This document shows, in pieces, positions 2,107 through 21,861 of a stretch of 21,861 bases of DNA. The position numbers were made by a program, and so were the translations under genes. This DNA is from Candidatus Latescibacterota bacterium (GTDB lineage Bacteria; JAAXHH01; JABIQT01). How positions within the stretch are numbered: the stretch's first letter is position 1; the number at the start of each line of letters is the position of its first letter. The DNA lies in contig JABIQT010000532.1 in NCBI GenBank assembly GCA_018667995.1, forward strand, positions 1 to 21,861, in the 5' to 3' direction. The notes beneath the pieces were generated by a model. It ran no database searches, had not been told where the DNA came from, and saw only the letters and a program-made list of their open reading frames with translations.

Positions 2107-4809
2107 ATGTCGAAATATGTGTATTTCTTCGGTTCGGGCAAGGCGGACGGGCAGGCCAATATGAAAAACCTGCTGGGCGGCAAGGGTGCCAACCTGGCAG
2201 AGATGACAAATCTGGGGATTCCGGTACCTGCTGGCTTCACCATATCAACGGAAGTCTGTACCGCCTACTACGACAATGACAGTCAATATCCAGAGACCCT
2301 CGCCTCCCAGGTCTCTGAAGCAATCGCCCAGGTTGAATCCGTGATGGGAACCAAATTCGGCGACCATGACAATCCGCTCCTTCTCTCAGTACGCTCCGGT
2401 GCCCGGGCATCTATGCCAGGTATGATGGACACGATCTTGAACCTCGGTTTGAATGACACCACGGTTCAGGGATTGATCGCACAGTCCAATAATGAACGCT
2501 TTGCTTATGACAGCTATCGACGATTCGTGCAGATGTACGGTGATGTGGTGCTTGGACTCAAGCCCGAGAGCCAGGATGAGCATGATCCCTTTGAAGTCCT
2601 TCTGGACGCCAAGAAACAGGCCAGGGGGGTAGAGAACGATACGGATCTTACCGCGGAAGATCTCAAGGAGCTGGTACAGGAATTCAAAGCTGAGATCAAA
2701 AAGAAGACCGGTCATGACTTTCCGGAAGATCCTCAGGAACAGCTCTGGGGAGCCGTTGGCGCTGTATTCAGCTCCTGGAATAATGATAGGGCAATAGTGT
2801 ATCGCAAGCTGAACGACATACCCTACGAATGGGGTACTGCCGTTAACGTACAATCCATGGTCTTCGGCAACATGGGTGATGATTGTGCGACTGGTGTGGC
2901 CTTCACCCGTGACCCTTCGACTGGTGAGAAGGAGTTCTACGGTGAATACCTGAAGAACGCACAGGGGGAGGATGTGGTAGCAGGTACTCGGACGCCCCAG
3001 CCGATCTCGCAGCTGAAAGAGGAAATGCCGGAGGTCTATGCCCAACTCGGAGATATATATATCAAGCTTGAGAACCATTACAAGGATATGCAGGACGTGG
3101 AGTTCACGCTACAGCGCGATCGGCTATGGATGCTGCAAACCCGCACCGGAAAGCGAACGGGATTCGCCGCCTTTCGCATAGCGGTCGATATGGTTGAGGA
3201 AGGTCTGATAACTGAAGACGAGGCCATTCGGCGTGTCGAGCCCGACCAGTTGAATCAATTGCTACGCCCCATATTTGATGCGAATGAGAAACGTGCCGCA
3301 CAAGAGGACGGTCGCGTGCTGGCGACGGGGCTCAACGCTGGACCGGGTGCCGCCGCTGGAAAGGTCGTTTTCAACGCAGATGATGCAGAGACTTGGGCCA
3401 AACGTGGAGATCACGTGATCCTGGTTCGCGTGGAGACGTCACCTGAGGATATTCGTGGGATGTCCGCTGCTGATGGGATCTTGACAGCCCGGGGTGGCAT
3501 GACGAGTCACGCGGCCCTGGTAGCAAGACAAATGGGCAAGATCTGCGTGGCAGGATGTGGTGCTCTGCACATCGATTATGTGAAACGCGAAATGGTTGTC
3601 AGTGGTAAAACAGTAAAAGAAGGTGACTACATCTCCATTGACGGTACCACCGGCGAGGTGATTGAAGGTGCCATTCCGACAATCCCCTCTGAGGTATTGC
3701 AGGTTCTGCTTCAGGGCTCATTGGCCCCTGAGGACTCCGAATTATACCACTGCTACGATCGCATGATGACCTGGGCAGACAAATATCGTAGTCTGAAGAT
3801 TAGGACCAATGCGGATCAGCCCGATCAGTCAGCCACGGCCCGTGCATTTGGCGCCGAGGGGATTGGCCTCTGCCGCACCGAGCATATGTTCTTTGAAGAG
3901 GACAGAATCGAGTCGGTACGTGAAATGATCCTATCCGACGATGAGGCAGGCCGTCGAGCGGCACTCGCAAAGCTCCTCCCCATGCAGCGTGAGGACTTCC
4001 GGGGGATTTTTGAGGTAATGGACGGATTTCCAGTGACCATAAGGACGCTTGATCCTCCCCTTCACGAATTCCTGCCGCACGAGGATGATGCTATCGTGGA
4101 GCTTGCTGGTGTGATGAATGTGGCTCCGGATGCCCTGCGGCAAAAGGTGGAGGATCTCAAGGAGTCCAATCCCATGCTCGGCCATCGAGGCTGTCGATTG
4201 GGAATCGTATTTCCAGAGATCACCGAAATGCAGGCCCGTGCCATATTTGAAGCTGCCACAGAGTGCCAGAAAAAGGGCATCAAAGCACTTCCGGAGATCA
4301 TGATTCCCCTGGTAGGCCACGTGAACGAACTCAAGGCCCAGGAGCAGATCGTCCGATCTGTGGCCGAAGCTGTCAAAGGCGAAACAGGAATTACGATCGA
4401 GTACGATCTGGGGACGATGATCGAGCTTCCCCGGGCCGCTTTGACTGCGGACGAGATTGCGGAAGTGGCGGAGTTCTTCTCCTTTGGTACGAACGATTTA
4501 ACCCAGACGACGTTTGGACTATCAAGGGACGACGCAAAATTCCTACCTGACTACCTTTCTCAGGAGATCTGGCCGGAAGATCCATTCGTCAGCATTGATC
4601 GCAGTGGCGTCGGTGAACTAGTGAAAATAGGTGTCGAAAAGGGACGGACCACGCGGAAGAACCTCAAGGTCGGTATCTGCGGAGAGCATGGCGGTGACCC
4701 TGATTCCGTTGAATTTTGCCACCAGATCGGCCTGAACTACGTGAGCTGTTCACCGTACAGAGTGCCGATAGCCCGACTAGCCGCTGCCCGGGCTGCGCTA
4801 GCAGAATAG
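2107..4809 (+). CDS. ppdK: Pyruvate, phosphate dikinase
   Basis: A full-length PPDK (900 aa; family about 870-900). It interconverts pyruvate, ATP and phosphate with PEP, AMP and pyrophosphate, a reversible step used in gluconeogenesis or PPi-linked glycolysis in the cytoplasm. The N-terminal nucleotide-binding domain begins with the Gly-rich [13 protein letters not shown] and has [19 protein letters not shown]. The swivelling phosphohistidine domain has [13 protein letters not shown] with catalytic His468. The C-terminal PEP/pyruvate barrel has the CRTEHMFF motif and [10 protein letters not shown] with catalytic Cys858. The start is fixed by the GGAGAAGG ribosome-binding site at 2091-2098. 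It lies downstream of the strong promoter at 1962-1990 and is probably transcribed alone or with the next gene. No catalytic residue seems to be missing. Confidence 0.97.
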
Positions 4810-6990: not shown

Positions 6991-9750
6991 ATGATCCGTC
7001 TACTCGAACGTATTCTTCATCTCCAACAGGGCGACCTGATCCGGGGCTATCCCCTGGTTCTCTACAATTTTCTCGTTATCACCTGTCTCACTATGAGCAA
7101 GGTCGCTCGTGATGTACTTTTCCTCGACAATTTCGCTGCCGTCATGTTGCCGTATGCCGATCTATCGATCACGGTATGCGTTATACTCGTTATGGCCGTC
7201 TATCTACGGATTGGCAGCCATCCTCGAATCAATCTCTATTCTCTCGTAATCGGCAGTCTCTGGCTATTTGCAGTGGTGATGGGTGTATTCTGGTGGCTGG
7301 TTCACTATCACCAAAGCCTGTGGCTCTTTCCAGCATTCTATATCTGGATCGGGATTTTTGGTGCCTTAGCCACAAGCCAAGTCTGGATTCTTGCCAGTGA
7401 AATCTACACCACGCGTGAGGCCAAACGGGTCTTTGGCATTCTTGGTAGTGGAGCAATAGGTGGGGCCATCACCGGTGGTTTTTCATCACGAGGTGTGGTG
7501 GAACTCTTCGGCACGGAGAGCCTTCTCCTATTTGCCGCTGTATTTCTGATAATCTGCAGTGGACTGGTCTGGCATCTGACCCGTCATCCGCAGAATAGCA
7601 CAAAGCGGGATGATCGTTCGGAGGCCCAGAATAGTGACGAAACACCGAAGAATCTCACCCAAAACGTCCGGTTCATCTGGGATTCGACCTACCTGCTTGC
7701 CGTTGCCGGTGTGATATGTTTAACGGCGGTGGTGACCTCTATTATAGGATGGCAGTTCAAAGCCATTGCCAAGGAATTCATTCCAGAGAAAGATGATCTT
7801 GCGGCTTTTATGGGTACCTTCCTGGGTATGACCGGGCTGTTGGGTCTTGCTATCCAGCTTCTGTTGACTTCGCGGCTTCTGCGACGACTGGGCCTGGGGC
7901 TCACCTTGCTCTTTTTGCCCATAGCGCTCATAACCGGCTCCCTTGGTGTTCTGATCGCGGGTACGCTTGGCTCCATTGTCATGCTCAAAGGGGCTGACAG
8001 TATCTTTCGATACTCCATTGACAAATCCACAGTGGAAATGCTCTACCTGCCTGTTCCCTCTGACACCAAGTTTCATATCAAGCCCTTTATTGATACGGTA
8101 GTTCAGCGTTTTGGTGACGGTCTGGGCGGACTAGCTGTTCTGGTGTTTGCCACCTTTATCCACCTGACATCGTACCAATTGAGCTGGATTACGCTTATTC
8201 TTCTCGGCGTATGGTGTTTTGCTGTAATCATCGCCCGCAGGCACTACGTGGCAACCCTGGCCGAGAATATCAGAAAGCAGACTCTTGATTCCGAAGACTC
8301 CATGATGCCCGTCATGGATCGAAACGCGCTCGAAGTACTCGCGGCACGACTCAAAGCAGGCGATCCCAAGGAGATTCTCTATGCGCTTGAAGTGTTCGCG
8401 CTTGAGAACCATTCGGTTATACATCCAGCGGTGCGCGATTTACTAGCCCATCCAGCTGCAGAAGTTAGATGCAAGGCGCTATCGATTCTTAATATAGCCG
8501 ATGATCTGACGGTGATGCCACAGGTTGAGACACTGTTGCAGGATGAGGATATCGCAGTCCGAACCGAGGCCCTGCTATTCCTGTCTCACCATGCCCGGAT
8601 CGATCCTCTCGAGCGTCTGGAGGAGTTGGGTGATTTCCCCAACTTCTCCGTTCAGTCCGCCATGATTGCCTATCTGGCCTGGCCCGGACAGATGCAGAAC
8701 ATAGTCGCGGCTCAGACAATACTCGATGCCATGCTTATGCAACTGGACACACAGGACAATGAGACGAGACTTGAGGCTGCTCGGTTGATCGCCGTTTTAC
8801 CTGACCACTTCGATGATCAGCTGGAAGAACTGATCAAAGACAGCAACACAGAGGTTGCCCGGCAGGCTATCCGGAACGTGGGCAGCATGAAGAAGGTCAC
8901 GTTTCTGCCGCATCTACTGGAACGCATGCACGATCAGGCTCTTACGTCTGATGTTGTTGCGGCGCTTAGTGCTTTTGGCGACGAGATTGTTGACACACTG
9001 AATTCCAATCTGTCGAATCAGGACGTGGCCATAGAGGTGCGGCGTGAGATCCCGCGTGCCCTTCTCCTCATCGATACACCTTCGGCCCAGGAAGCACTGG
9101 TAGAGAGCCTGCTGGTCGCAGATACTTCTCTTCGGCACCAGGTCATCGCAGCCATCAACGGAATCTACGAGAAGCATCCGGGTTTTGCGATCGATTCGGA
9201 GATGATAGACACCGTTCTAATGGCGGAAATCGTCGGCCAATACCGCTCATTTCAGATGCTCGGCGTGTTGACCGAAACATTGAAACCGGAAGACTCGATG
9301 CTGCTGGCATTGCACGAATCGATGAATCAGCGCCTTGAACGCATCTTTCGACTGATGGCGCTAGAGTATCCAGGGTACAACATGATGAGTGCCCATGCCG
9401 GCTTTCTATCTAAGGACAGGGCACTCTACGACAATGCTCTGGAATTCCTGGACAATGTCTTGAAACCAGGGCTTCGAGGCTTGGTGATCGCTTTATTGGA
9501 TCGGGAAGTGACCGATGTCCAGCGTGTCAAACATGCCGATGAAATGTTGGGTGTATCCATGGACAGGCCTGAGGAAGCATTGGCCACTTTGATGGATAAC
9601 GAAGATCCATGGCTGAAATCCTGCGCCGTATACACAATAGGGATCTTGGGTTTACACGCGTTGGAGTCGGAAGTAGACCTCTGCCTGGACCATGAAAATC
9701 CGCTTCTACGCGAAACGGCACGCCAGGCCAAGTTGAGATTGGCACCTTAG
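6991..9750 (+). CDS. ATP/ADP translocase-like (Npt1/Npt2-type) transporter with C-terminal HEAT repeats
   Basis: 919 aa in two halves. Residues about 20-425 hold roughly 11-12 hydrophobic segments and resemble the nucleotide-transporter (NTT/TLC) branch of the MFS fold. Recognisable features are ARDVLFLDNF after the first segment, SEIYTTREAKRVFGILGSGAIGGAITGG in the middle, and a cytosolic linker rich in Asp, Ser and Thr near residues 205-225. Residues about 445-919 form an alpha-solenoid of repeated helix pairs with HEAT-like signatures, for example DEDIAVRTEALLFLSHHA and DSNTEVARQAIRNV. Classical NTTs exchange ATP for ADP or import nucleotides in intracellular parasites and plastids; HEAT-fused homologues occur in free-living bacteria and their substrate is unsettled. 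No Shine-Dalgarno is evident. The start at 6991 lies just after the terminator, so a promoter must be within the leader or transcription reads through. Confidence 0.85.
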   Translation: MIRLLERILHLQQGDLIRGYPLVLYNFLVITCLTMSKVARDVLFLDNFAAVMLPYADLSITVCVILVMAVYLRIGSHPRINLYSLVIGSLWLFAVVMGVFWWLVHYHQSLWLFPAFYIWIGIFGALATSQVWILASEIYTTREAKRVFGILGSGAIGGAITGGFSSRGVVELFGTESLLLFAAVFLIICSGLVWHLTRHPQNSTKRDDRSEAQNSDETPKNLTQNVRFIWDSTYLLAVAGVICLTAVVTSIIGWQFKAIAKEFIPEKDDLAAFMGTFLGMTGLLGLAIQLLLTSRLLRRLGLGLTLLFLPIALITGSLGVLIAGTLGSIVMLKGADSIFRYSIDKSTVEMLYLPVPSDTKFHIKPFIDTVVQRFGDGLGGLAVLVFATFIHLTSYQLSWITLILLGVWCFAVIIARRHYVATLAENIRKQTLDSEDSMMPVMDRNALEVLAARLKAGDPKEILYALEVFALENHSVIHPAVRDLLAHPAAEVRCKALSILNIADDLTVMPQVETLLQDEDIAVRTEALLFLSHHARIDPLERLEELGDFPNFSVQSAMIAYLAWPGQMQNIVAAQTILDAMLMQLDTQDNETRLEAARLIAVLPDHFDDQLEELIKDSNTEVARQAIRNVGSMKKVTFLPHLLERMHDQALTSDVVAALSAFGDEIVDTLNSNLSNQDVAIEVRREIPRALLLIDTPSAQEALVESLLVADTSLRHQVIAAINGIYEKHPGFAIDSEMIDTVLMAEIVGQYRSFQMLGVLTETLKPEDSMLLALHESMNQRLERIFRLMALEYPGYNMMSAHAGFLSKDRALYDNALEFLDNVLKPGLRGLVIALLDREVTDVQRVKHADEMLGVSMDRPEEALATLMDNEDPWLKSCAVYTIGILGLHALESEVDLCLDHENPLLRETARQAKLRLAP

Positions 9751-9992: not shown

Positions 9993-11777
9993 ATGTCATC
10001 AGATCATGATCTAAGTGAAGGGTTGTTAGCCATTGCGCCATCGGTCGAAGATACGGTGGACCCCATTCAGCAGAAACTGGCTGAAGAGAAAGCCAGGTTG
10101 ATGGCAGAGGCCGGCTTAGAGCAGAAGAAGTCCAATCACTTTAAGCGGCCCCAAGAAAACCCGTTCACTAAGGATCAACGATCGCACACGACTCTGCTCT
10201 TCGGAGGCCTGACCTGGAAACATGAGCATCTACTACACGGTGCTTTTGAGGGTTTAGGATACAAGTGCGAGTACGTACCTACACCCAATGTAGATGCGTT
10301 TCAGCTTGGAAAAGAATACGGCAACAACGGTCAGTGCAACCCGACATATTTTACGGTCGGAAATCTGGTTCAGTATCTTCAGGGACTCGAAGAGGCCGGG
10401 CAGACCAAAGAAGAAATCATAAATAACTACGTATTTCTCACCGCTGGAGCTTGTGGTCCGTGCCGTTTCGGTATGTACGAGGCGGAGTACCGTTTGGCGC
10501 TCCGTAATTCCGGTTTTGACGGATTCCGCGTACAATTATTTCAACAATCGGGCGGTATAGATCAGGCAGAACTTGAAGCCGGCCTTGATATGAATCTCGA
10601 CTTCTTCATGGGGATTCTCAATGCCTTGAATGTGGGTGACATGGTCACGGGCCTTGCCTATCAGATTCGACCGTACGAAGTGATACCCGGAGAGACGGAT
10701 CGGGTGCTTGAAGAGTCCATTGACTATCTGCACGACGTGATGAAAACAAAGAAGCGTTTCCAGGTTGGAGAGAGTAAATGGGCCGGACTGATCAAACCGT
10801 TTCCGGGTTTCGAAAATAATGCCAACTTCCTGGGTAAATTCCTAGATCAGCTTTTCAGCGACGATTATGTAGAAGCGCTCCACCACGTACGGGATAAATT
10901 CGATGCCATTGAAGTTGACCGGCTGCGCGCAAAACCGATCGTCAAGATAACAGGCGAATTCTGGGCGCAAACCACGGAGGGCGACGGTAACTTCAATATG
11001 TTCAAGTTCCTTGAAGGTGAAGGCGCCGAAGTCATGGTCGAACCCATAGGTACGTGGATTATTTATATGCTTCATCAGGCCAAGCAGGCCGCGAAGGATC
11101 GTAAGGGTGTTAAGGGCGGCGAGGAGTTTGCATCGTGGTCCAATCCAGCCAGGCGACTGAATCAGGAACTGAAATTCAAGCAGAAGATCGGAGCGATGAC
11201 CATTGCCGAGGGTATCTTCAACCGTGAGTACAATAGGTTGATTGAGGCCATGGGAGGTACGGTCCATCATCTGGCCGATCAATATGAGCTCCAGCGTCTG
11301 GGACATCCTTTCTACAACTCTCGCGCTGGTGGCGGAGAAGGCCATCTGGAAGTGGCGAAGAATATCTATTACAGCAACAAAGACCTTGCCCACATGGTGC
11401 TTTCGGTCAAGCCCTTTGGCTGCATGCCCTCCACACAAAGCGACGGCGCACAGGCTGCGGTAGTGGAACAGTACAAGGATATGATCTACCTGCCGATAGA
11501 GACATCCGGCGAGGGTGAGATCAATGCCCATAGTAGAGTACAGATGGCATTAGGCGAGGCAAAAGCCAAGACCAAGAACGAATTGAACGAGACACTGCAG
11601 GAAGCGGGTTTGACGATTCAGGACGTTCGCGCCTATATAGACGCGAACCCGGAGCTGAAGCGACCTGTATTTCACGTACCGGAATACAAAGGTAAAGTTG
11701 GTCTCGCATCACGCACGGTCAAATACGTAGCTGAGAGATTGAAAGACGAAGGTGCTTACAGCGAGGCCGCGGGATAG
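9993..11777 (+). CDS. 2-hydroxyacyl-CoA dehydratase/double-cubane-type reductase component (COG3581-like)
   Basis: 594 aa, cytoplasmic, with GGAG (9981-9984) 8 bases before the ATG. The sequence resembles the large catalytic partner of ASKHA activases, the superfamily of HgdAB/FldBC dehydratases and double-cubane-cluster proteins. Likely cluster cysteines are Cys115 in NNGQCNPTYF, Cys154 and Cys157 in AGACGPCRFGMYE, and Cys477 in KPFGCMPSTQSDG; Cys92 is another candidate. Known partners receive one electron at very low potential from an ATP-driven activase and reduce their substrate. The activase gene follows 70 bases downstream, so the two almost surely work together. In some clostridia this unit is fused to the activase as one very long protein; here it is separate. 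No CoA-transferase or fatty-acid gene lies nearby, so a hydroxyacyl-CoA substrate is not shown; small-molecule reduction by a double cubane is equally possible. Confidence 0.82.
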   Translation: MSSDHDLSEGLLAIAPSVEDTVDPIQQKLAEEKARLMAEAGLEQKKSNHFKRPQENPFTKDQRSHTTLLFGGLTWKHEHLLHGAFEGLGYKCEYVPTPNVDAFQLGKEYGNNGQCNPTYFTVGNLVQYLQGLEEAGQTKEEIINNYVFLTAGACGPCRFGMYEAEYRLALRNSGFDGFRVQLFQQSGGIDQAELEAGLDMNLDFFMGILNALNVGDMVTGLAYQIRPYEVIPGETDRVLEESIDYLHDVMKTKKRFQVGESKWAGLIKPFPGFENNANFLGKFLDQLFSDDYVEALHHVRDKFDAIEVDRLRAKPIVKITGEFWAQTTEGDGNFNMFKFLEGEGAEVMVEPIGTWIIYMLHQAKQAAKDRKGVKGGEEFASWSNPARRLNQELKFKQKIGAMTIAEGIFNREYNRLIEAMGGTVHHLADQYELQRLGHPFYNSRAGGGEGHLEVAKNIYYSNKDLAHMVLSVKPFGCMPSTQSDGAQAAVVEQYKDMIYLPIETSGEGEINAHSRVQMALGEAKAKTKNELNETLQEAGLTIQDVRAYIDANPELKRPVFHVPEYKGKVGLASRTVKYVAERLKDEGAYSEAAG

Positions 11778-11810
11778 TTCACATCCGATAGCATGGACGC
11801 TGACGATAAC

Positions 11811-11822
11811 GGGGTGAACCCC
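11811..11822 (+). other. Small GGGG-TGAA-CCCC hairpin in the operon spacer
   Basis: A 4-bp all-GC stem with a TGAA tetraloop lies between the dehydratase-type gene and the activase gene. There is no T run, so it is not a terminator. It could affect mRNA stability or the ratio of the two products. This may be coincidence. Confidence 0.3.
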
Positions 11823-11847
11823 ATGACTAAGCCTGAGAGGCGAATAA

Positions 11848-14800
11848 ATGAGTGAACAAGATCGTCGCATGATGGTTGGGCTGGACGTAGGATCAACGAC
11901 CGTAAAAGCGGTGGTAATCGATGCCCAGACCGATGAAATTCTCTGGCAGGATTATCAGAGACATGACACGAAGCAGCCGGAAAAAGTGCTGGAGTTCTTG
12001 AAACAGATTGAAGACAAGGTTGATCTGCCGCAGGACCAATATCGCGTTTTTATTACGGGTAGCGGTGGTTCGGGCATTGCACCGAGGATTGGCGCCAAAT
12101 TCGTTCAGGAAGTGAATGCGGTGGCCCTGGCCGTGGAGAAACTGTATCCGTCGGCTGGTTCCGTCATTGAACTCGGTGGTCAGGACGCGAAAATCATCAT
12201 TTTCAAGGAAGATCCGGAGACTGGTAAGAAGAAGAAAATCCCCAGCATGAATGACAAATGCGCCGGTGGCACGGGCGCAGTGATAGATAAAATCAACGCG
12301 AAATTGCGCATACCAGCCGATGAGTTATGTGAACTGGAGTACTTCGACATGAAGCTCCATCCTGTCGCCGGTAAATGTGGGGTTTTCGCCGAGACCGATA
12401 TCAATAGTCTCCAAAAGATGGGTGTGCCCAGAGATGAACTTATGGCATCGCTCTTCGAGGCTATTGTGGGTCAGAATCTCTCTGTATTGACGCGCGGCAA
12501 TACGCTTCGACCAGAAGTCCTCCTCTTGGGCGGACCAAACTGCTTTATCAAGGGCATGCGGGACGCCTGGCGGTATAACATCCCCAAAATGTGGGAGGAG
12601 CGTAACGTACAGCTTCCCGAGGGTGTTGACCCCATGGATCTCATCAAGACACCCGAGAATGCTCAGTATTTCGCGGCAATCGGTGCGGTCGAGTTCGGTA
12701 AGGATGAGAACGACGATATCGGGGTCTATCAGGGATACGAGAATCTAGAGTGGTACATCAACGAAGGACGTCTCGAAGAGAAGAAGAAGGCAGGTGGATT
12801 CGGCCTGAGCAAGACCGACCATGAATTAGTAGCCTTCAAAGAGAAGCAGAAGGGCGAGGCATTCGTCGAGGCCACTTTCAAGCCAGGTGAAGTCGTGGAG
12901 GGATTCGTTGGCCTGGACGGTGGCTCCACTTCTACGAAAGCCGTACTCCTTGACAAGAACAGGGACATACTGGTTAAGGCATACCAGCTTTCCAAAGGCA
13001 ATCCCATTGAAGACACCATGGAGATGTTCCAGGAGCTGCGCGATAAGGTGGAAGCTCAGGGCGCCACCCTGCAGGTCATGGGGGTCGGAACTACGGGGTA
13101 TGCCAAAGATATTCTGAAAGACGTACTGGCTGCCGATGTAGCGTTGGTAGAGACGGTAGCGCACACAGAAGCTGCTTTGCACTTTTATGAAGATGTGGAT
13201 GTGATCTGTGATGTGGGTGGTCAGGATATCAAGATCATGATCCTCAAGAATCGGCAGGTCAAGGACTTCAAATTGAATACCCAGTGTTCGGCAGGGAATG
13301 GCTACTTCCTGCAGAGCACCGCAGCCGATTTCGGCTTTGAAGTGACGGAGTACGCCGATGCGGCCTTCAATGCAAAATCGATGCCCATGTTCGGTTATGG
13401 GTGCGCTGTATTTATGCAATCCGATATTGTAGACTTTCAGCGCCAGGGATGGCAGCCCGAAGAAATCATGGCGGGCCTCGCCAATGTATTGCCAAAGAAT
13501 ATCTGGCTCTATGTATCACAGATTCCGAATCTGGCCGCGCTTGGTACCAACTTTGTACTTCAGGGCGGGACGCAGAACAACCTCGCGGCCGTAAAGGCTC
13601 AGGTGGATTTCATTGAGTCACGATTCAAGGGAAAACCGGAACAGCCGAACGTTATCGTCCATAAGCATTGTGGTGAAAGTGGAGCTATCGGTGCTGGAAT
13701 AGAAGCTGTACGGCTGTGGGAGAATGGTAAGGAAACCGAGTTTATCGGTTTGGATGCTGTGAAGTACATTACCTATGATACCCATCGTAGCGAAGGCACC
13801 CGGTGCTTCTTCTGCAAGAATAAATGTCTCAGGACGTTTATCGATGTCAAAGTCTCTGAGAGTGATGAAATCGATGAAGCCAAGAAGAAGTCGAAAGTGC
13901 CTCTCGTAGCTGGACACAAGCGCTTGATTGTGGGCAATTCCTGTGAAAAAGGCCTGGTCGAAGATGTAGAAGACATGCGCGAGATCAAGAAGGGCTTGGA
14001 CGAGGTCATGGGAGCGAACATCAATCTTGTGGAGATCTCGGCCAAAAAAGTCTTCAAGTCTTTCAAGCCTGAAATTGTCGCGGATCAGCCTCCCAAGCCT
14101 AAGCTGGGTATCATGATGGAGAAGACACGACAGCGCAAGACGGCTATGGAGCAGAGAGCAAACATCCGCATCGGTATGCCCAGAGTACTGAATATGTACT
14201 CCCAAACGCCGCTCTTTACCGCGTATTTTGAGAGTCTCGGAGTTAGCCGGAAGAACCTCGTGTTTTCCGACTTTACGAATGAAAAACTCTATAAAGAAGG
14301 CGCCAAACGCGGTGCAATTGACCCGTGTTTTCCGAGCAAGCTAGCCATTCCGCACATTCATAATCTACTGCACGTGCATCATAAGAAGAAGCCTCTGGAC
14401 ATCATCTTCTTTCCGATGATTGACTGCCTGACAGGTCCGCTTGTTAACACACAGGCACGTCGTTCATGCCCCACGGTGGCGACAACCCCAGAGGCAGCCA
14501 AGGCGGCGTTCACCAAGGAAAGCAATCTCTTTGAGGAATTGGGGATTGTCTATCTGGATACATTCATAAATACCAGCGAATATAGGCACTTTGAACGCCA
14601 GATGTACGATCAGTTCAAGGACCATCTCGGACTGTCTTGGGAAGAGAATCAACGGGCTGTGGTAGAATCGTTCAAAGCACTGAACGCCTACAACGAATTT
14701 CTACTCCGGTCCGGCCGCGAGGTGATCGACCAACTGGAAGCGGAAGATAAGCTAGGTATTGTGATGCTCGGTAGACCTTATCACAACGATCCCGGCTGTA

Positions 14801-15402
14801 ACCACGAAATACTCGAGGAATTCCAGAAGATCGGATACCCCGTCTTCACCATGGATTCTTTGCCCATAGACGAAGATATCCTGACGCGTCTCTGGCAGGT
14901 TGACTACGACGCCTACGTCGAAGAGCATGGAAAAGAGCCTATCAACAAGGCAACGGGGGAAGTGCTCTCCGTAGCCGAATTTGCTCTTGATGTAGAAGAC
15001 GTATGGAAGAACTCGTATAGCGAGAATACTACGCGAAAAGTATGGGCTGCGAAATTCACCGCACGTCATCCGAACCTTGTTGCTCTGGAGATGTCGAGCT
15101 TCAAGTGCGGCCATGATGCGCCTACCTACACGGTCATTGAGGAGATCATCGAGCGGTCGGGTACGCCGTACTTCTCGTTCAAGGATATAGATGAGAACAA
15201 ACCCACTGGATCCATTCGTATCCGGGTGGAGACCATCGCCTATTTCCTCAAGCGTTATCGTGAAGACATGGTACATAATAATATGAAACGTAAAGAAATC
15301 GACCAGAAACTCCAGGAACTGGAACAACAGCTCCGCTCTGAGCAAGGTGCGTACGAGTATGAAGAGGGCGTGGCGGCTGCAGGTGGCGGGGGTGGCGGTT
15401 AG
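11848..15402 (+). CDS. Two-ASKHA-domain acyl-CoA dehydratase activase with DUF2229-type C-terminal region
   Basis: 1184 aa, with GAGAGG (11835-11840) before the ATG. Two BcrAD/BadFG ASKHA ATPase domains stand in tandem. Domain 1 (about 8-290) starts with GLDVGSTTVKAVV; domain 2 (about 351-640) starts with GLDGGSTSTKAVL. Each has its own pair of cluster cysteines: Cys138 (NDKCAGGTG) with Cys177 (KCGVFAETD), and Cys480 (TQCSAGNG) with Cys519 (GCAVFMQSD). Both pairs are 39 residues apart, as in HgdC, whose homodimer holds one [4Fe-4S] with two cysteines per subunit. A CFFCKNKC motif (653-660) and Cys699 may bind a further metal. Residues about 780-1130 match the DUF2229 (COG3580) region, with Cys827, 860, 874, 984 and 1087. 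The tail is acidic and ends AAAGGGGGG. Role: couples ATP hydrolysis to electron transfer to the upstream partner. Confidence 0.9.
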   Translation: MSEQDRRMMVGLDVGSTTVKAVVIDAQTDEILWQDYQRHDTKQPEKVLEFLKQIEDKVDLPQDQYRVFITGSGGSGIAPRIGAKFVQEVNAVALAVEKLYPSAGSVIELGGQDAKIIIFKEDPETGKKKKIPSMNDKCAGGTGAVIDKINAKLRIPADELCELEYFDMKLHPVAGKCGVFAETDINSLQKMGVPRDELMASLFEAIVGQNLSVLTRGNTLRPEVLLLGGPNCFIKGMRDAWRYNIPKMWEERNVQLPEGVDPMDLIKTPENAQYFAAIGAVEFGKDENDDIGVYQGYENLEWYINEGRLEEKKKAGGFGLSKTDHELVAFKEKQKGEAFVEATFKPGEVVEGFVGLDGGSTSTKAVLLDKNRDILVKAYQLSKGNPIEDTMEMFQELRDKVEAQGATLQVMGVGTTGYAKDILKDVLAADVALVETVAHTEAALHFYEDVDVICDVGGQDIKIMILKNRQVKDFKLNTQCSAGNGYFLQSTAADFGFEVTEYADAAFNAKSMPMFGYGCAVFMQSDIVDFQRQGWQPEEIMAGLANVLPKNIWLYVSQIPNLAALGTNFVLQGGTQNNLAAVKAQVDFIESRFKGKPEQPNVIVHKHCGESGAIGAGIEAVRLWENGKETEFIGLDAVKYITYDTHRSEGTRCFFCKNKCLRTFIDVKVSESDEIDEAKKKSKVPLVAGHKRLIVGNSCEKGLVEDVEDMREIKKGLDEVMGANINLVEISAKKVFKSFKPEIVADQPPKPKLGIMMEKTRQRKTAMEQRANIRIGMPRVLNMYSQTPLFTAYFESLGVSRKNLVFSDFTNEKLYKEGAKRGAIDPCFPSKLAIPHIHNLLHVHHKKKPLDIIFFPMIDCLTGPLVNTQARRSCPTVATTPEAAKAAFTKESNLFEELGIVYLDTFINTSEYRHFERQMYDQFKDHLGLSWEENQRAVVESFKALNAYNEFLLRSGREVIDQLEAEDKLGIVMLGRPYHNDPGCNHEILEEFQKIGYPVFTMDSLPIDEDILTRLWQVDYDAYVEEHGKEPINKATGEVLSVAEFALDVEDVWKNSYSENTTRKVWAAKFTARHPNLVALEMSSFKCGHDAPTYTVIEEIIERSGTPYFSFKDIDENKPTGSIRIRVETIAYFLKRYREDMVHNNMKRKEIDQKLQELEQQLRSEQGAYEYEEGVAAAGGGGGG

Positions 15403-15747: not shown

Positions 15748-16215
15748 ATGGGAATTGCTGAGATTATTGCTGCTATAGCGTTGCTAATAGCAGGAGTTGG
15801 CTGGCTCAAAGTCGTGAAATTGCAGAAGGCCGTCGTCGATTCTAACGAGGAAATGACCTCGTTGCGGAGTCACGTGACAGCCTCTGCAAATATCGTTGAG
15901 CAGAAGATAGAAGAAGTGCGACGGACTGCGGCCAAACGCGTCACCACAGGGTCGAGCCGATTTCATGCCGATATGACGGTGGCGGAGGTCCTCGATTTTC
16001 ATCCGGATGCAGCTTCCGTTATGGCGAACTTTCATCTGGGTGGATGTTCCAGCTGTGCGATCAGCGATCATCACGTTCTGGGCCCCGCATGCGAGTCCTA
16101 TGATATAGACACTGATGCTCTGTTGGCCGCCCTCAATGGACTTCTTGAAGGCGGCCCCATTCCGGCTACGCAGCCCCGCGGTGAGAGTTTGTTGCAGATT
16201 GACGCCGACGTATAG
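15748..16215 (+). CDS. Membrane-anchored DUF1858-type redox-disulfide protein
   Basis: 155 aa. Residues 4-22 form one hydrophobic segment (EIIAAIALLIAGVGWL). Residues about 25-65 are a charged helix of coiled-coil type. Residues about 70-135 match the DUF1858 / hybrid-cluster-protein-associated redox disulfide domain: MTVAEVLDFHP, then FHLGGCSSCAISD with Cys100 and Cys103, then a helix ending in LLAALNGLLEG. Cys115 is a third cysteine. The short N-terminus suggests an N-out or tail-like anchor; topology is uncertain. AGGAG (15732-15736) overlaps the stop of the preceding gene, showing coupling. Family knowledge says the CxxC is redox active or binds metal. Inference: it could link the operon's electron-transfer pair to the membrane or to a thiol pool. 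It has a cysteine-free counterpart at 18592-19071. Confidence 0.85.
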   Translation: MGIAEIIAAIALLIAGVGWLKVVKLQKAVVDSNEEMTSLRSHVTASANIVEQKIEEVRRTAAKRVTTGSSRFHADMTVAEVLDFHPDAASVMANFHLGGCSSCAISDHHVLGPACESYDIDTDALLAALNGLLEGGPIPATQPRGESLLQIDADV

Positions 16216-18591: not shown

Positions 18592-19071
18592 ATGATTTAC
18601 TTTTTGATCGGACTATCGCTGGTGGCCTTGGTGGTTTCTTTTCTCGCCTGGCGTCGTTCAAACAAGCTTCAGGTAGAGCTAGTCAAATTACGGAGTCTCG
18701 TATTCGACCTGAGCCGAGGTGTGCGGGAGATCCGTGAAGAGCTGAAAGAATCACGGCGCCAGGTGCACCTCATGATGCAGCACGGCGGAAAAGTGATGCA
18801 GATTGAGGCCACGACCCAGGTCCGCGACGCAATGGCTATGCATCCAGGTATTCGAGACGTATTTGCGAGCATCCACATGCGCAGCGGCTCAAAATCCGCC
18901 ATAGGCGATGAAGATACCATAGCCCAGGTTGCGGCTGGGCATGAGAAGGATATCAACCTGCTCCTGGGCGTTCTCAATGAAGTGCTGGAGAAGAGCCCTG
19001 ACGAACCTGTGGTGCAGAATTCGGATGACACCGGCCTAATACAGATAAGTCCGATGCCCGAGAGTGACTGA
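18592..19071 (+). CDS. Membrane-anchored DUF1858-like protein lacking the redox cysteines
   Basis: 159 aa, with AGGGGAG (18581-18587) overlapping the preceding stop. The architecture copies the protein at 15748: a hydrophobic N-terminal anchor (residues 2-19), a charged coiled-coil helix (about 24-65) and a DUF1858-like domain (about 70-135). Matched positions include MHPGIRDVFASIHM against FHPDAASVMANFHL, then AIGDEDTI against AISDHHVL, and LLLGVLNEVLE against LLAALNGLLEG. In the redox loop Cys100 and Cys103 of the first copy are replaced by Gly99 and Ser102, and this protein has no Cys at all. Inference: a divergent paralogue that keeps a structural or pairing role, perhaps as hetero-oligomer partner of the Cys-bearing copy. 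The call as DUF1858-like rests on this alignment by eye. It is the last gene before a strong terminator. Confidence 0.72.
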   Translation: MIYFLIGLSLVALVVSFLAWRRSNKLQVELVKLRSLVFDLSRGVREIREELKESRRQVHLMMQHGGKVMQIEATTQVRDAMAMHPGIRDVFASIHMRSGSKSAIGDEDTIAQVAAGHEKDINLLLGVLNEVLEKSPDEPVVQNSDDTGLIQISPMPESD

Positions 19072-19681: not shown

Positions 19682-19787
19682 TTCAAATATGCTGTATTCG
19701 TAACATAATTGGCAACTCCACGGCCTAACATGGCTCTTAGAGAATATAACGTCGTGCAAGCCAATGCTATCAGCTACGAGAATCCAT

Positions 19788-21551
19788 ATGAACGAAGTTC
19801 AATCGTTAGTGCGGATTGCGCAGTGTCCTGAGACTTCGAGACTCGAAAGACACCGTGCATTTGGGGTGCTGGTAGGTCGATTCCAGGATATGGTCTACGC
19901 CTATAGTTTCGCTGTGTTGGGGGATTTTCATCTGGCTCAGGATGTTGCTCAAGAGACCTTTCTAAAAGCTTATCAGGAGCTCGATAGACTTGAAACCGCT
20001 GCCGCGTTTCCCGGATGGCTTCGACAGATAGTACGCACACAATGTAATAGAGTCACGCGCCGAAAGCGGTTGCCGGTCGTGACCCTCGATGAGTCGGTAG
20101 ACCACATTCAGGATCCGGAAGCTGATCCCTCTGTTATCGTCGAGCGGCGTGAGTTGCAGCGCCAGGTCATGGATGCGATACAAGCTCTACCCGAGCATGA
20201 GCGAACGGTCACCACGCTATTCTACATCGATGGATATGCGCAACAGGATGTGGCGGACTTTCTCGAAGTCCCCGTAACGACAGTACAAAAACGCCTTCAG
20301 TACGCCCGCAAGAAACTCAAGCGCACTATGATCAGTCAGGTTCGTGAGAATCTATATGAACAGCGCCTCTCCCGAAATACGTCGTTTGCCTCCCGTCTTC
20401 ATGACTTGCTCAGGACGAAGACGATTGGGGATGTGCAACAGGTGGAGGCCCTGCTGAGCGAAGATGGCTCCCTAGCCACGGCAAGGGGGCCTGCGCAAGG
20501 CGCGGCGTGGCTCTGGGGCCAGGAGAATTGGACGCCGTTGCACAGGGCAGCGATGCAACTGCATCAATCGGCGGAAGAGCACCACCATATCATCGATCTC
20601 CTGCTGGCAAACGGCGCCGATATTAACGCGCAACTGGGCACATCGGGCTGGCGACCATTGCACATGGCGCTGGCATTCGGATCTCGTGCGCTAGATGGTC
20701 GACACCATGCGCTGGCGAGTTTCATGATTTCACGAGGCGCACGAATCGACGCCTATACAGCAGCAGCGGTGGGAGATGTGGACCAGCTATCATGGTTTAT
20801 TGAACATGGAAAAGGGGGCGCTCAGGCTATCGGTCCAGACGGCGCTATGGCGTTACATTTTGCCGGGTCCGTGCGCGCCTCGCGTATGCTATTCGATGCA
20901 GGCGCGGACCTGAACCAAAAGGATGCAGTTCATGGCGGCACTCCGTTACGGTGGAGAGTCGGACTTCGCTGGCGGGACCGGCCAGAGCATAACGCCGTGG
21001 CCCGGCATTTAGTGGAGATGGGCGCTCAGGTAGATGATGTGTTTCTCGCCTGTGCCCTGGACGACAGGGATCGGGCTACCGATCTAATCAGGAAATCGCC
21101 TGGCTTGGTAAATAGCAGGACACATCAGCGTGATATGCTGCGTGGGCATGTGACTCCTCTACATATTGCCGTGTTCTGGCGTTTGCCCGAAATGGCCGAG
21201 TTACTCTTGAATCTTGGAGCGGATATAGATGCGGTCGGCCACAACGATATCAAGCGCCCTCTAATCACCGCGGCATTCAACGGTTCCATGGAAATGATCA
21301 GACTCCTGCTTGATCATGGCGCCGACGTAAACGCGACGGATGCTCCCCATGGTGGTACGGCACTTCATTGGGCCATATACGGTGCGGAATTCTGGTGGCA
21401 GGATCATGAAAACAGAAACGCCGTCATAGAAGCTCTTTTGACGGCGGGTGCGGATGTGACGGCTTCGAACGCACAATGGAATACGCCACTCAGTCTGGCC
21501 AAGCGGCTGGACAGGTCGGACCAGGTCGCTCTGCTAAGAGGGAGCTATTGA
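19788..21551 (+). CDS. ECF-type sigma factor fused to C-terminal ankyrin repeats
   Basis: About 587 aa from ATG 19788 (an ATG at 19764 would add eight residues; neither has a strong ribosome-binding site, and ECF proteins usually begin near MNEVQSLV). Sigma region 2 is seen in VGRFQDMVYAYSFAVLGDFH and AQDVAQETFLKAYQELDRL, with FPGWLRQIVRTQCNRVTRR after it. Region 4 is IQALPEHERTVTTLFYIDG with the helix-turn-helix QQDVADFLEVPVTTVQKRL. From about residue 200 to the end come some eight ankyrin-like units, the clearest being TPLHRAA with LLANGADINAQ, TPLHIAVFW with LLNLGADIDAV, and TALHWAIYG with LLTAGADVTAS. Ankyrin repeats bind proteins, so the tail may sense a partner and control the sigma domain. 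No anti-sigma gene is adjacent. Confidence 0.9.
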   Translation: MNEVQSLVRIAQCPETSRLERHRAFGVLVGRFQDMVYAYSFAVLGDFHLAQDVAQETFLKAYQELDRLETAAAFPGWLRQIVRTQCNRVTRRKRLPVVTLDESVDHIQDPEADPSVIVERRELQRQVMDAIQALPEHERTVTTLFYIDGYAQQDVADFLEVPVTTVQKRLQYARKKLKRTMISQVRENLYEQRLSRNTSFASRLHDLLRTKTIGDVQQVEALLSEDGSLATARGPAQGAAWLWGQENWTPLHRAAMQLHQSAEEHHHIIDLLLANGADINAQLGTSGWRPLHMALAFGSRALDGRHHALASFMISRGARIDAYTAAAVGDVDQLSWFIEHGKGGAQAIGPDGAMALHFAGSVRASRMLFDAGADLNQKDAVHGGTPLRWRVGLRWRDRPEHNAVARHLVEMGAQVDDVFLACALDDRDRATDLIRKSPGLVNSRTHQRDMLRGHVTPLHIAVFWRLPEMAELLLNLGADIDAVGHNDIKRPLITAAFNGSMEMIRLLLDHGADVNATDAPHGGTALHWAIYGAEFWWQDHENRNAVIEALLTAGADVTASNAQWNTPLSLAKRLDRSDQVALLRGSY

Positions 21552-21580: not shown

Positions 21581-21861
21581 CTAGGCACCAACTGCCGTCA
21601 TCACCTGCTCCACAAACATCTCCTCGGGTAGATTGCCCTCAAAGCTTGCCTCGTCATTAATGACTACCTTCGGGACCCCTCGAACCTGGTACTGAACAGA
21701 CATGTCCTGGAAGGTCGTCGCCTCCACCATTTCTGCCGTCACGAGATCACTCTCAATCGCGAGCTTATGTGCCATCCGCACAGCTCCGGGACAATGCGGT
21801 CATGTGGGGGTGGAAATTACCCGCAGGTGGACGGGTGTAGGCAGCTTCGTCAAGCGCTCTC
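21581..21861 (-). CDS. Partial thioredoxin-fold protein disulfide oxidoreductase, probable selenoprotein (UGA at 21800-21802)
   Basis: The leftward frame enters from the window edge and runs to TAG at 21581-21583, with one in-frame TGA at 21802-21800. Read as selenocysteine (U), the text is HLRVISTPTUPHCPGAVRMA, placing U exactly at the first position of a CxxC redox motif (UPHC; Cys codon 21793-21791). The sequence before and after the TGA is equally thioredoxin-like: a beta strand ahead (VHLRVIST), helix AVRMAHKLAIES, strand LVTAEMVEATTF, cis-Pro loop RGVPKVVIN and a final helix. This matches the C-terminal half of protein disulfide oxidoreductases (glutaredoxin/thioredoxin-like, usually TPTCPYCP). 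A GTG at 21781 would give only a 66-aa fragment without a redox motif and is unlikely to be a start. The N-terminal part lies outside. A point-mutated pseudogene is the alternative. It converges on the sigma-factor gene, 29 bases apart. Confidence 0.78.
21761..21786 (-). promoter_or_regulatory. Candidate bacterial SECIS hairpin
   Basis: On the minus-strand mRNA, 13 nt after the UGA, GAGC+UGUGC (21786-21778) pairs with GCACA (21772-21768) and, after a UAA bulge, GCUC (21764-21761). The apical loop GGAUG starts with two G and lies 22 nt after the UGA. Bacterial SECIS elements lie inside the coding region just after UGA, with a loop G near the start and about 16-37 nt spacing, so this fits. Folding was done by eye. 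Confidence 0.65.

Follow-up and report, generated by a model that had tools for sequence, protein, structure and literature searches.

Lists of selenoprotein families of prokaryotes include, under the entry 'homolog of AhpF N-terminal domain', the protein disulfide oxidoreductases (PDOs) of the NCBIfam family TIGR02187 that carry a UxxC motif (PMC9312934, PMC13188914, PMC1794560). The family is also listed under the name 'Grx-like domain protein', with ABB15282.1 as an example (PMC9312934, PMC13188914), and a member from Carboxydothermus has been reported (PMC1794560). NCBI has named the respective model PDO_seleno_TRX. In the Cys-form PDOs, electrons are received from an NADPH thioredoxin reductase and passed on, for example to a peroxiredoxin in Sulfolobus (PMC7278568).

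Here, a gene of this family is described from the end of a contig of Candidatus Latescibacterota. The window, i.e. the whole stretch of 21,861 nucleotides that was analyzed, is the complete contig (C192) of a metagenome-assembled genome (MAG G000; 6.06 Mb, 1165 contigs, 85% complete, 4% contamination). All sequence evidence taken together, the gene appears to be a real selenoprotein gene. It is very probably the C-terminal half of a two-domain PDO, in which the nucleophilic active-site cysteine is a selenocysteine (Sec).

Reading frame and family assignment

The 3' part of the gene (21581..21861, minus strand) encodes a C-terminal thioredoxin domain of 92 residues, as recognized by profile matches, while the contig ends before the 5' half, which a search of the remaining MAG did not recover. 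Read from position 21859 on the minus strand, the frame gives ERLTKLPTPVHLRVISTPT-U-PHCPGAVRMAHKLAIESDLVTAEMVEATTFQDMSVQYQVRGVPKVVINDEASFEGNLPEEMFVEQVMTAVGA, followed by a TAG stop codon (21583-21581). It contains a single TGA at residue 20 (21802-21800, minus strand) and neither a further stop nor a frameshift before the TAG, and translation through the TGA yields ...VISTPT-U-PHCPGAVRMAHKLAIES.... In the alignment, this codon takes the first Cys position of the CxxC active site (UPHC), which is a Cys in the homologs L024 and L025 and a UGA in the homolog L023. The second active-site Cys is encoded by a TGT (21791..21793, minus strand) and forms an invariant alignment column. Opposite the UxxC motif, the codon at 21671..21673 (minus strand) encodes the proline of a GVPK loop, which corresponds to the invariant V185-P186 of L023 and, judged from the thioredoxin fold, would be the cis-Pro. 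Both GTG and ATG codons occur in frame 3' of the UGA, and a fragment of about 66 aa starts at the GTG after CPGA. A first-pass annotation of the sequence had proposed a UxxC oxidoreductase at this place, and its coordinates, frame, motif, cis-Pro loop, and 66-aa fragment agree with the minus-strand translation.

For family searches, the TGA residue was entered as Cys in the 92-residue query. The fragment matches positions 121-208 of 209 of TIGR02187 with an E-value of 4.3e-36, Pfam Thioredoxin_3 with 8e-18, and the C-terminal units of the PDO structures 1j08 and 1a8l with 3e-21 and 2e-20, respectively. The TIGR02187 score of 124 bits was reached by the C-terminal half alone, to be read against a curated cut-off of 185 for full-length proteins, which the full-length protein L023 exceeds with 262.6 bits. 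The columns of UPHCP and GVPK, i.e. the C-terminal UxxC with its following proline and the cis-Pro, are invariant. On the basis of these matches, the fragment is assigned to the second of the two thioredoxin units of a PDO. While the window holds the C-terminal domain, the AlphaFold2 model of L023 (pLDDT 86, pTM 0.81) comprises two thioredoxin units in tandem, and comparison of this model with the PDO structures 2ayt, 1a8l, and 1j08 resulted in E-values of 1e-22 to 1e-20 and a TM-score of about 0.75. The model places the UxxC directly in front of a helix, and in the alignment the cis-Pro loop shows no variation. A plasmid search returned chiefly AhpF-like relatives. With the TIGR02187 match running through the UGA and the UGA conserved in L023, the earlier proposal of a Sec-dependent disulfide oxidoreductase is supported.

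Several other genes of the window are encoded on the plus strand. Convergent with the selenoprotein gene, a protein of 595 aa (19764-21551) combines regions 2 and 4 of an ECF-type sigma factor with C-terminal ankyrin repeats. Two short apparent paralogs with an N-terminal membrane-like segment (15748-16215 and 18592-19071) have no Pfam match; the former contains the motif GGCSSCAISD, while the latter has RSGSKSAIGD at the equivalent place and has thus lost the cysteines. A gene pair at 9993-15402 encodes a protein of 594 aa that has no Pfam match, together with a BadF/BadG-type CoA enzyme activase of 1184 aa with DUF2229. A further protein of 919 aa (6991-9750) is a fusion of a TLC ATP/ADP transporter-like (MFS) membrane domain with HEAT repeats. 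An Rfam scan of the window gave zero matches.

Conservation of the UGA codon in a second genome

Among 16 genomes of the phylum, the same gene was found in one further genome (G001), which belongs to the same order but another family. There, contig CAJXCW010000224.1 (L023) encodes the whole protein of 215 residues (2632-3279) with exactly one UGA, located at the identical codon. Over the shared domain, the two proteins are 72% identical. More distant relatives have a Cys at the site, namely CPYC in L024 (Chloroflexi) and L053 and CPHC in L025. Thus, the site is occupied by either Cys or UGA in the homologs, as had been anticipated in the first-pass annotation. The N-terminal thioredoxin unit of L023 lacks a CxxC and has the sequence AVDPPQNSQ where L024 has CQYC; the UxxC is the sole redox motif left in this protein.

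In the comparison of the two UGA-containing genes, 38 codons differ synonymously and 25 non-synonymously. The differences lie on both sides of the UGA, with 9 synonymous and 6 non-synonymous codons in the 5' direction and 29 and 19, respectively, in the 3' direction, including the stop codon. As the differences are mostly synonymous on both sides, purifying selection is indicated to act through the UGA. This pattern bears on the reading of the UGA as a functional stop/start boundary, from which a short protein of about 66 aa would be made from the GTG and used alone. In-frame start codons 3' of the UGA are indeed available for such a product, but it would lack both the active-site residue and the initial strand of the domain, and it would not account for the conservation 5' of the UGA. 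We consider its existence extremely improbable.

The conserved UGA also bears on a technical explanation. TGA is one base away from both TGC and TGT, and the window stems from a draft MAG, so the gene might be that of an ordinary Cys-form PDO with a sequencing or assembly error. However, G001 keeps the UGA at exactly the same codon, whereas most other codons differ between the two genes in DNA sequence, and the MAG encodes SelA as well as a SelD with its own UGA (see below). Sequencing error, which had been named as a possible refutation of the selenoprotein, is thereby excluded for practical purposes.

Selenocysteine machinery and candidate insertion signal

The MAG encodes SelA (L005; TIGR00474, 487 bits at a cut-off of 268) and SelD (L016, 1393-2442, minus strand; TIGR00476, 373 bits at a cut-off of 125). 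Within the motif TCGUAAKISP, the selD gene has a UGA of its own in frame, at a position which we take to be that of the catalytic Cys. It is followed by the hairpin CAGUCC-GGUA-GGACUG, the loop G of which lies 17 nt 3' of the UGA. This SelD represents a second selenoprotein of the MAG, and SelD proteins with Sec are already known as a selenoprotein family (PMC1794560).

SelB was not found in the 85% complete MAG by family, protein, or DNA searches, and neither was tRNA-Sec. The best SelB-like matches that were inspected are GTPases of the CysN/CysNC and EF-Tu/EF-G types and hence not SelB, and the sub-cut-off matches of the tRNA-Sec model are tRNA-Ser and tRNA-Leu. In the phylum, SelB was found above the cut-off in 14 of the 16 genomes, and tRNA-Sec in 13 of the 16, counting only matches of 68-72 bits, as weaker ones near or below the cut-off may be of the tRNA-Ser or tRNA-Leu kind. 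At the two loci that were examined with ARAGORN (L026 and L047), the program called tRNA-SeC(tca). SelB adjoins tRNA-Sec in the relatives that were compared, among them G004, G009, and G015; in the case of G001, two contig ends each carry a part of the SelB gene, the C-terminal one of which adjoins the tRNA. Because selB and selC are neighbors in relatives and about 15% of the genome is missing from the MAG, one assembly gap may account for both absences. The complete machinery implied by the first-pass annotation was recovered in part: SelA and SelD are present in the genome itself, whereas SelB and tRNA-Sec are present in most genomes of the phylum.

The missing SelB and tRNA-Sec could be taken to indicate that the UGA is a genuine stop in a decaying gene. 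In such a pseudogene, however, codon differences from L023 would not be expected to be mostly synonymous 3' of the UGA, the frame is free of other stops and frameshifts up to the TAG, and the stop would have hit exactly the catalytic Cys in both genomes, which makes decay highly improbable. The same absences would fit a loss of Sec insertion, in which case a different tRNA would decode the UGA, e.g. as Trp or Cys. Against this stand the incompleteness and fragmentation of the MAG, the retention of SelA and a Sec-type SelD, and the selB-selC pairing in relatives, which allows a single gap to explain the absence. TGA is also the normal stop of 5 of the 15 ORFs in the window, so the genetic code has not been altered globally. 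Reassignment of the UGA to another amino acid has a negligible probability, and Sec remains the preferred reading.

A candidate for the apical hairpin of a bacterial SECIS element (bSECIS) is located just downstream of the UGA (21763..21784, minus strand). It has the sequence GCUGUGC-GGAUG-GCACAUAAGC with an upper stem UGUGC/GCACA and fits the published bSECIS model (PMC13188914), for which a stem of at least 4 bp, a loop of 3-9 nt, a G in the first two loop positions, and a distance of 16-37 nt from the UGA were used as criteria. The hairpins of the two UGA genes, UGUGC-GGAUG-GCACA in the window and UGUGC-GGUUA-GCACA in L023, are both within these limits, with the loop G 22 nt 3' of the UGA in each case. 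Of the ordinary codon positions in the window, 3.7% are also followed by a strict version of the hairpin. In the stretch of codons 21-30, 1 of the 9 comparable codons is changed synonymously, compared to 36 in 55 elsewhere (Fisher p 0.003), with a p-value of 0.09 for this signal in a scan-wide permutation. The stability of the hairpin is not exceptional (z -0.55 to -1.39). RNAalifold, applied to the two UGA sequences, favored another, competing hairpin and detected no covariation. The hairpin is therefore regarded as a plausible SECIS candidate and is not claimed as proven.

From the anatomy of the locus and the known pathway, SelD would provide selenophosphate, SelA would form Sec-tRNA, and SelB with tRNA-Sec, recruited by the hairpin, would insert Sec at the UGA. 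The selenol of UPHC would then attack the disulfide of a substrate, and the resulting selenenylsulfide would be resolved by the Cys in this motif. The reductant is probably an NADPH thioredoxin reductase, although both this partner and the direction of electron flow are deduced from the Cys-form PDOs. By analogy with these enzymes and their supply of electrons by NADPH thioredoxin reductase, the protein is likely a disulfide reductase that uses a selenol and passes through a selenenylsulfide intermediate. A more tentative suggestion, which we hold to be somewhat doubtful, is that the PDO of this lineage is a single-site enzyme that has lost the N-terminal CxxC and gained the C-terminal Sec; the loss is seen in L023, while the N-terminal half of the window protein lies beyond the contig. 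If this were true, one selenol site would replace two dithiol sites.

Comparison with known disulfide oxidoreductases

The N-terminal domain of AhpF has the same tandem arrangement of thioredoxin-like units as PDO, but it is part of a flavoprotein and matches far more weakly than TIGR02187. The Cys-form PDOs of Pyrococcus furiosus, P. horikoshii, and Aquifex (1a8l, 1j08, and 2ayt) likewise consist of two thioredoxin units with a cis-Pro. Their active site is TPTCPYCP, with a Cys at the position of the UGA of the window, and the Pyrococcus PDOs have an additional CxxC (CQYC) in the N-terminal unit.

Also among the closest systems is the described UxxC family of TIGR02187, which shares the model and the motif with Sec in first position with the window gene, and L023 is two-domain and above the cut-off. 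The window gene differs in its lineage, which is uncultured, and L023 may differ also in its N-terminal domain. The absence of a CxxC from this unit, as seen in L023, is the one unusual detail. The description of the gene as hidden is fair with regard to automatic annotation, and the locus is another case in which such annotation truncates a selenoprotein gene, but the family itself had been entered in selenoprotein catalogs before. Thus, the selenoprotein appears to be genuine but is not novel in kind, since family, motif, and insertion mechanism have all been described. It changes no concept; what it adds is an uncultured, Sec-utilizing lineage in a selenoprotein family that has been sampled sparsely.
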